A stretch of DNA of 64,000 bases from Fodinisporobacter ferrooxydans (GTDB taxonomy: Bacteria > Bacillota > Bacilli > Tumebacillales > MYW30-H2): positions 2,311,501-2,375,500 of the forward strand of contig NZ_CP089291.1 in the NCBI RefSeq assembly GCF_022818495.1. Reading direction: 5' to 3'. Of this stretch, positions 61,063 through 62,146 are shown in pieces. Made by a program: the position numbers and the translations under genes. The notes under the pieces were generated by a model. It did no database searches. It had not been told where the DNA came from and saw only the letters and a list, made by a program, of their open reading frames with translations. Position 1 is the stretch's first letter, and each line of letters opens with the position of its first letter.

Positions 61063-61323
61063 AATCGGGCAAACAAGTTGTTCGTGTAGCTGCATTTGAA
61101 CAAATGGCTCATGCGTTTAGGGATTAGTATGGCATTCGTTGCAAATCATATGCACGGATCGTATTTGGAAAGACGTAAATAAAGTGTCACCAAATGTGCA
61201 AAAACCGCATATGTTTGATATCAGTGTCTACTCTGTATATGCGGATATGTACAGCAAGGGATTGAATTGGATGGATTGCGTATTTGCTATCACCTGGAAA
61301 TCAACATACCTGGAAATCAACTA

Positions 61324-61352
61324 TTGAAAAATAAACACGAAGGAATTATACT
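61324..61352 (+). promoter_or_regulatory. Sigma-A-type promoter of speD
   Basis: TTGAAA (61324-61329), 17 bases, TATACT (61347-61352). Start ~61359. Confidence 0.75.
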
Positions 61353-61410
61353 AACTTTTGGAATTGTATGGAGCAGTACACATGCAAAGGAACCAGCATT
61401 CACTTAAAGG

Positions 61411-61499
61411 GTTAGGACCTCATAGGACTAACTTTCCCCCGTGGTGGATGGCGCAGGTCCCGCATGCTTGAAAGAGCATGAATATTTTTCAAAGGGGGA
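61411..61499 (+). promoter_or_regulatory. Structured speD leader with alternative pairings and sequestrable ribosome site
   Basis: GTTAG (61411-61415) can pair with CTAAC (61428-61432), or GGACCT (61415-61420) with AGGTCC (61455-61460); TCCCCC (61435-61440) is complementary to the ribosome site GGGGGA (61494-61499). CATGCT (61463-61468) / AGCATG (61475-61480) hairpin precedes ATATTTTTC. These pairs are seen directly; a ligand or control role is inferred. Confidence 0.5.
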
Positions 61500-61506
61500 T
61501 CTTTAC

Positions 61507-61890
61507 ATGAATACCATGGGGCGTCATGTCATTGCTGAATTATGGGAATGCGATATTGAAATACTGGATGATTTGCAAAAAATCGAAAGAATTATGGTGA
61601 ATGCGGCTCTCGAAGCGGGCGCGGAAGTAAGGGAAGTCGCTTTCCACAAATTTGCCCCCCATGGAGTGAGCGGTGTTGTTATTATTTCCGAATCCCATTT
61701 GACAATCCACAGTTTTCCGGAACATGGGTATGCAAGTATCGATGTTTACACTTGCGGCCAACGAATTGATCCAAAGGTTGCATGTGATTATATAACGATG
61801 CAATTAGGCTCAAAACGGCGCGAATCGATTGAAGTGCCGAGAGGTCTGGGGAAAATCGATGTATCTGAGCAAAAACTGGAAATATTATAA
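61507..61890 (+). CDS. speD: S-adenosylmethionine decarboxylase proenzyme
   Basis: 127 residues. The prokaryotic class 1B enzyme: the cleavage site is in [21 protein letters not shown], where Ser becomes the pyruvoyl group after chain cleavage; HSFPE and YTCG are the conserved acid/base residues. Makes decarboxylated SAM for spermidine. ATG 61507 follows AAAGGGGGA; in-frame starts further upstream lie within the structured leader. Confidence 0.93.
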
Positions 61891-61988: not shown

Positions 61989-62064
<76 letters not shown>

Positions 62065-62071
62065 TTTAAGC

Positions 62072-62146
<75 letters not shown>

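Follow-up and report, generated by a model that had tools for sequence, protein, structure and literature searches.

Background

Short leaders of S-adenosylmethionine (SAM)-pathway genes in Gram-positive bacteria harbor the SMK box (SAM-III) and SAM-VI riboswitches, which work by occluding a G-rich ribosome site with an anti-Shine-Dalgarno segment. The SAM-II, SAM-V and preQ1-I/II riboswitches have compact cores, and their pseudoknots incorporate the ribosome site; in enterobacteria the SpeFL leader peptide acts on speF by stalling ribosomes. The search for riboswitches that sense polyamines has been a long one, and the class that is now accepted comprises rare SAM-I variants: this spermidine riboswitch is represented by 13 examples at polyamine genes of Gram-positive bacteria, including speD (PMC10853860). 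Other genes related to polyamines are likewise preceded by conserved RNA or uORF elements, the odc1 and potE motifs (PMC8632094). As for speD itself, its transcript level changes with amino acids (PMC2743287), the Escherichia coli speD-speE region appears in a computed list (PMC4448311), and a 79-nt Hfq-associated RNA lying between speD and gapB in Bacillus subtilis is listed as 'unknown or speD leader region', an uncharacterised leader for which the passage concerned gives no structure, conservation or mechanism (PMC3574147).

Here we analyze the leader of speD in a window of 64,000 nucleotides from Fodinisporobacter ferrooxydans. The leader is probably an undescribed cis-acting translational switch, and probably a riboswitch. 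It resembles the SMK box and SAM-VI in being a short leader of a SAM-pathway gene with a putative anti-Shine-Dalgarno segment set against a G-rich site; however, those elements serve metK rather than speD, and the speD leader has a different core, a nested second module and no match in Rfam. It likewise differs from SAM-II, SAM-V and preQ1-I/II in that its proposed pseudoknot would be long-range and its core lies inside an outer stem, again with no match in Rfam. With the spermidine riboswitch it shares the link to a polyamine gene and the occurrence in Gram-positive bacteria, but it gives no SAM-I match, is far more widespread and is found only at speD. The odc1 and potE motifs, in contrast, belong to ornithine decarboxylase and potE genes, and the odc1 element involves a uORF (PMC8632094). 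Searches of the open literature, with PMC11109978, PMC7266159 and PMC4342826 among the papers covered, turned up no description of the element; supplements and most subscription papers lie outside this scope, and a prior description there is possible.

Results and discussion

Organization of the speD leader and absence of catalogued families

A preliminary description of this leader, made from the letters of the window, had recognised no catalogued riboswitch family in it, and this holds for Rfam, which matches neither the leader nor those in the loci of 16 relatives. At the gathering threshold a search of the whole window returned two tRNAs only, and at a relaxed threshold nothing sensible appeared in the speD leader. 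The SAM-I model matched nothing in 61300-61530 at E-values up to 5, nor in the loci of these relatives at values up to 1, and the SAM-I aptamer fold that marks the spermidine riboswitch was accordingly not found; the covariance models of the SMK box/SAM-III and of SAM-VI also had no match in the window leader or in the relatives' loci. Two tRNA genes occupy 61989-62143, about 100 bases past speD.

Table 1. Parts of the speD leader in the window, in order of position
Feature	Position	Strand	Basis
Sigma-70 type promoter, TTGAAA-17-TATACT	61324-61352	+	sequence scan
Whole element	61387-61501	+	covariance model R1 match, 94.3 bits, E 3e-23 (a score given by construction, since the window is among the model's 39 sequences)
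P1a 5' strand GGAaCC; partner GGUCC, 61456-61460; A61392 bulged	61389-61394	+	mostly invariant, little covariation
Module A internal loop, 5' side AG	61395-61396	+	alignment A2
P1b 5' strand CAUUCAC; partner 61444-61450	61397-61403	+	covariation
Module B, near-invariant apical core AAAGGGUUAGGACCUCNNNGGACUAACUUUCCCCCGUG	61406-61443	+	conservation
P2 hairpin GUUAG/CUAAC; inner CC/GG, 61418-61419/61425-61426	61411-61432	+	almost invariant in 51 aligned sequences
Anti-Shine-Dalgarno UCCCCC	61435-61440	+	sequence; conservation in relatives
P1b 3' strand GUGGAUG	61444-61450	+	covariation
Module A internal loop, 3' side GCGCA	61451-61455	+	alignment A2
P1a 3' strand GGUCCC; alternative predicted partner GGGAUC, 61496-61501	61456-61461	+	folding of the 3' half
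Linker hairpin CAUGCUU/GAGCAUG (terminator reading rejected)	61463-61480	+	scan, folding
Shine-Dalgarno AAAGGGGGA	61491-61499	+	sequence; GGGGG in relatives
speD, S-adenosylmethionine decarboxylase	61507-61890	+	PF02675, E 8.7e-40

The leader spans about 150 nt up to the start codon at 61507, and its transcript would begin near 61358-61360. An outer stem, formed by P1a and P1b and interrupted by the internal loop that we term module A (GGAACCAG/GCGCAGGUCC), encloses an apical core, module B, which ends in CCCCC and stands opposite a GGGGG ribosome site. By eye, P1a has counterparts in relatives such as GGAaCCCU/AGGGcUCC (L006) and GGUAAC/GUUACC (L022). Folded alone, the window leader is modestly more stable than its shuffles (z -1.71, 7/200 as good), and in its minimum free energy fold CCCGUGGUG (61438-61446) pairs with UACCAUGGG in the start of the speD coding region, where AUGGG is dictated by the Met-Gly codons. 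The evidence from the single sequence is weak; the strong evidence for the element is comparative.

The same holds for the promoter proposed about 150 bases ahead of speD. It is present, yet a scan of the region in the window finds three such sites where 2.9 are expected, which is the chance level, whereas 37 of 110 leaders (window included) have a sigma-70 type promoter ahead of the element as against 109 of 2200 mononucleotide shuffles. In these 37 leaders the promoter precedes the element by a median of 38 nt (range 20-78). About 5 nt past the -10 box many speD leaders (for example L022, L023, L026, L247-L249, L251, L252) carry TCGTG(AACTTC), so that the first transcribed bases are perhaps conserved too; the stretch 61353-61370 of the window lacks this motif.

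Two separable modules upstream of speD genes

A search with the SpeD protein in 61 genomes yielded 30 loci, and 18 of the 30 leaders share the core ACUUAAAGGGUUAGGACCUCNNNGGACUAACUUUCCCCCGUGGU. Scanning the genome collection with a pattern of this core retrieved at least 118 contigs; among the matches listed, 118 of 119 have speD within 900 nt downstream and the remaining one is cut by the end of its locus. These listed matches come from Bacillus, Planococcus, Halobacillus, Exiguobacterium, Alicyclobacillus and other genera, with B. tequilensis, B. halotolerans and B. paralicheniformis among the Bacillus species. To quantify the conservation we used speD1 leaders selected through the protein, given that the larger set of 51 leaders had been picked in part by the exact core pattern. 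In the 39 of 56 such leaders that have the core, 33 of its 36 positions are invariant, while the mean majority-base frequency in its 20-nt flanks is 46%. The length of the core is off by one base in two leaders (L011 and L095).

The window genome possesses a second speD (G000:C1:3438253), whose product is 40% identical to that of the window gene, and its leader has module A with UCUCCUC opposite GAGGAGA. The outer stem with the conserved internal loop UAGGAACCAGGAUUCAC...GUGAAUGACGUAGGUCCUA recurs in 19 of 20 leaders of this speD2 type, including the window genome's own, and also in the window; the sole exception is L167. Some speD2-type leaders have GGAUCC/GAUCC in place of the usual module A strands, and in leaders of this type at large the apical part is often replaced by GGGUGG...CCGCCCCC, by GGGG...CCCC or by short UCUCCUC loops. 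We defined module A as the internal loop plus its flanks and module B as the apical core, and sorted 132 leaders accordingly: 47, all of speD2, have A alone, 30 (29 of speD1) have B alone, 34 (10 of speD1 and 24 of speD2), including the window, have both, and 21 have neither. The existence of A-only and B-only leaders indicates that the modules are separable. For 16 of the 21 leaders with neither module the other speD of the same genome carries the element, and in the other five genomes (G027, G037, G069, G089, G131) it was found at no speD. In two families of the window's order, the leader of speD1 is without the element and that of the second speD has it (L008-L010, L012-L015, L019-L021), and in these same loci speD1 seems to lie close behind another gene.

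The preliminary description had envisaged a switch between GTTAG/CTAAC (61411-61415/61428-61432) and a competing helix GGACCT/AGGTCC (61415-61420/61455-61460). The former pairing is present and nearly invariant in relatives. The letters of the latter are present too, but the GGUCC segment pairs with GGAACC (61389-61394) instead, and a conserved switch of this kind is not supported, given that in 30 of 132 leaders the core occurs without the module to which the AGGTCC segment belongs, module A.

Covariation of the stems

That description would have been undermined by a lack of conservation and covariation upstream of speD in relatives, and the opposite was observed, as both are found. In the module A set (39 leaders, alignment A2) the outer stem is paired in 95.8% of cells, and 13 cells are changed on both sides, compared with 2.0 in shuffled alignments and at most 8 when the strands are slid. 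The module B set (51 leaders) contains 87 cells changed on both sides, all of them in P1b, against 30.9+-5.2 after shuffling (0/500) and at most 38 after sliding; one of the five measures applied to this set was null, with 6 pairs showing a change on both sides versus 6.0 in the shuffles. Judged by these alignments, the outer stem covaries. P2, by contrast, is almost invariant, with three changes from A-U to G-U and one broken pair in the 51 leaders, and hence covariation says nothing about its pairing.

Specificity for speD

We searched further genomes with model R1, built from the window element and 38 relatives, and with R2, a model of the core. Some matches, the window included, helped to build the models, their E-values are rough, and the large searches were run with stricter filters that lose weak matches. 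With this reservation, all 123 matches of R1 in 161 genomes of the window's class lie directly upstream of speD. They account for 123 of the 143 speD places (71/75 of speD2 and 52/68 of speD1) and are spread over 114 of the 161 genomes. R2 gave 86 matches in the same genomes, 85 of them at the speD places of R1, the other being a 23-bit stray. In the window's own genome R1 detects both speD leaders plus one match at E 7. Across 299 genomes of the phylum, its 10 matches comprise six from the window's class, one of 50 bits upstream of speD in a genome of another class (G249, L264) and three weak ones (L269-L271), which according to the translations are not beside speD; the six matches of R2 comprise five from the window's class and a weak one (G217). 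As far as these samples go, this appears to be an element of Bacilli that is dedicated to speD.

The anti-Shine-Dalgarno segment and the ribosome site

UCCCCC (61435-61440) and GGGGGA (61494-61499), which it was proposed to cover, are both present, and all 134 canonical leaders have GGGGG 34-94 nt (median 52) past CCCCC. At 41 nt or more past CCCCC, GGGGG is found in 117 of the 127 leaders with enough sequence and GGAGG in one; for comparison, of 42 long ORFs in the window 12 have GGAGG before the best start and two have GGGGG. The loops of the 39 leaders in alignment A2 contain CCCC in 29 cases, CUCC in eight and neither in two (L158, L212), the loop of L158 pairing weakly with its ribosome site (-6.4 kcal/mol). 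A GGAG-type site lies opposite 8/8 CUCC loops as against 1/29 CCCC loops. For CUCC loops the pairing energy is -13.6 kcal/mol against a site of matching type and -9.1 against the other type, whereas CCCC loops pair equally with both. The latter accounts for the outcome of a pooled shuffle test of loop against own ribosome site in the 39 leaders (810/5000 as good, not significant), since any G-rich site will do as the partner of a CCCC loop. One family includes eight genomes that have speD2 in two copies and the element at both (G024, G062, G076, G102, G112, G122, G132, G162); in 8/8, the copy with CCCCC carries GGAAGGGGG and the one with CUCC carries GGAGGGGG. The contrast between the two loop types comes from related genomes and may reflect few events, and the pattern in this family perhaps a single one. 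On these comparisons, we consider pairing of the anti-Shine-Dalgarno segment with the ribosome site likely rather than proven.

Folding the 3' half predicts a second route to the ribosome site. The window has GGUCCC (61456-61461), which could mask that site by pairing with GGGAUC (61496-61501), and in many speD2 leaders UCCUAGC is predicted to pair with GCUAGGA just ahead of the ribosome site. In alignment A2 this alternative 3' helix can form in 86.9% of cells, with six cells changed on both sides. P1a and the alternative helix are thus predicted to be mutually exclusive, which would be the usual layout of a riboswitch platform.

A proposed switch and competing explanations

Taken as a whole, the preliminary description of a structured speD leader with an anti-Shine-Dalgarno segment is confirmed, and the phenomenon proves larger than that description had it. 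Its interpretation as a polyamine- or SAM-responsive switch gains from the conserved, covarying leader and the anti-Shine-Dalgarno segment, but neither the GGACCT/AGGTCC helix nor the terminator-like hairpin contributes to it.

We suggest the following scheme, in which the outer stem (P1a and P1b) would enclose the near-invariant core. In the closed state CCCCC would be released from the core to pair with GGGGG at the ribosome site, so that a long-range pseudoknot shuts off speD translation. In the open state it would be kept in the core, beside the GUUAG/CUAAC hairpin and the preceding GGG, leaving the ribosome site free. Module A would act as a second conserved unit, whose 3' strand GGUCC either closes P1a or pairs at or beside the ribosome site; with two alternative partners for this strand, module A could feed the same decision between open and closed. 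The two states would interconvert, and a small pathway molecule (SAM, decarboxylated SAM or spermidine, the last of these closing the switch) may shift them through A, B or both. The restriction of the element to speD makes these three the likeliest signals without favoring one among them, and as such gives little hint of the ligand. As in known riboswitches, the gene is a metabolic one and the leader before it is both conserved and structured, and for the invariant core an aptamer would fit best, with a protein site next.

More tentatively, modules A and B could be two distinct undescribed aptamers, occurring singly in some Bacilli and nested here into a two-input switch, although we are inclined to doubt it. 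For example, SAM supply weighed against spermidine (or decarboxylated SAM) might set how much SAM is spent on polyamines. If this were true, Bacilli, the B. subtilis group included, would have in this element their main riboswitch for the polyamine pathway. Should each module prove to bind a ligand, the element would also represent a two-input switch found in nature, for which the single-module relatives provide built-in controls. The element precedes speD in many Bacilli, including the genetically easy B. subtilis group, for which speD and speE knockouts exist (strain table of PMC10853860), and hence the matching of SAM use to polyamine need should be directly testable.

Alternatively, the core could bind a protein, such as SpeD, an RNA chaperone or another regulator, or a small RNA, which would hold or free the segment complementary to the ribosome site. 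The core is invariant even within its stem, which suits a protein as well as an aptamer, and B. subtilis Hfq co-precipitates the 79-nt RNA of the speD-gapB gap with a ratio of 14.1 (PMC3574147); this RNA may be the same element. However, module B is common to the leaders of two SpeD paralogues that are about 40% identical, and 47/132 leaders have module A only, so that a single protein site would not explain all versions, and we consider this explanation unlikely. Considerably less probable still is a leader with no specific sensor, in which polyamines merely stabilise the helix between Shine-Dalgarno and anti-Shine-Dalgarno segments and high spermidine lowers speD translation with no aptamer involved. 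The retention of a pyrimidine tract opposite the ribosome site where the apical core is replaced (37/39 loops) agrees with such an effect, but it would not depend on the invariant core or on the module A loop, each of which is conserved more strongly than pairing demands.

A riboswitch acting on translation is also favored over two mechanisms to which we give almost no credence. Transcription attenuation would use the linker hairpin (61463-61480) and its T-rich tail, which are present as the preliminary description noted, but we rejected the terminator reading given that this one site compares with 1.1 expected by chance, the T run is by eye not kept in relatives, and the hairpin itself is replaced or missing in many. 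A SpeFL-like leader peptide that stalls ribosomes is suggested by a frame open through the core (LKGLGPxxTNFPPW), with an ATG at 61382 in the window that has GGAG ahead; it too was rejected, for 94/132 leaders have no start codon in frame, just 2/132 combine a start (38/132) with a ribosome site, the third codon positions of the core are invariant, its length shifts by one base in the two leaders mentioned above, and the conserved translated leader ORF typical of the speF leader and arrest peptides was not found.

Individual leaders

In two related genomes (L002, L003) a long extra stem extends the apical loop of module B, in a manner that fits the CC/GG closing pairs. The leader of L078, on a contig labelled Pseudomonas sp. 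ISL-84, is Bacillus-like, which suggests that the label is perhaps wrong. In L016, speD is closely followed by a lysine riboswitch (2000-2176), and in L099 two tandem copies of the core (329-363 and 894-928), 565 bases apart, precede one speD.
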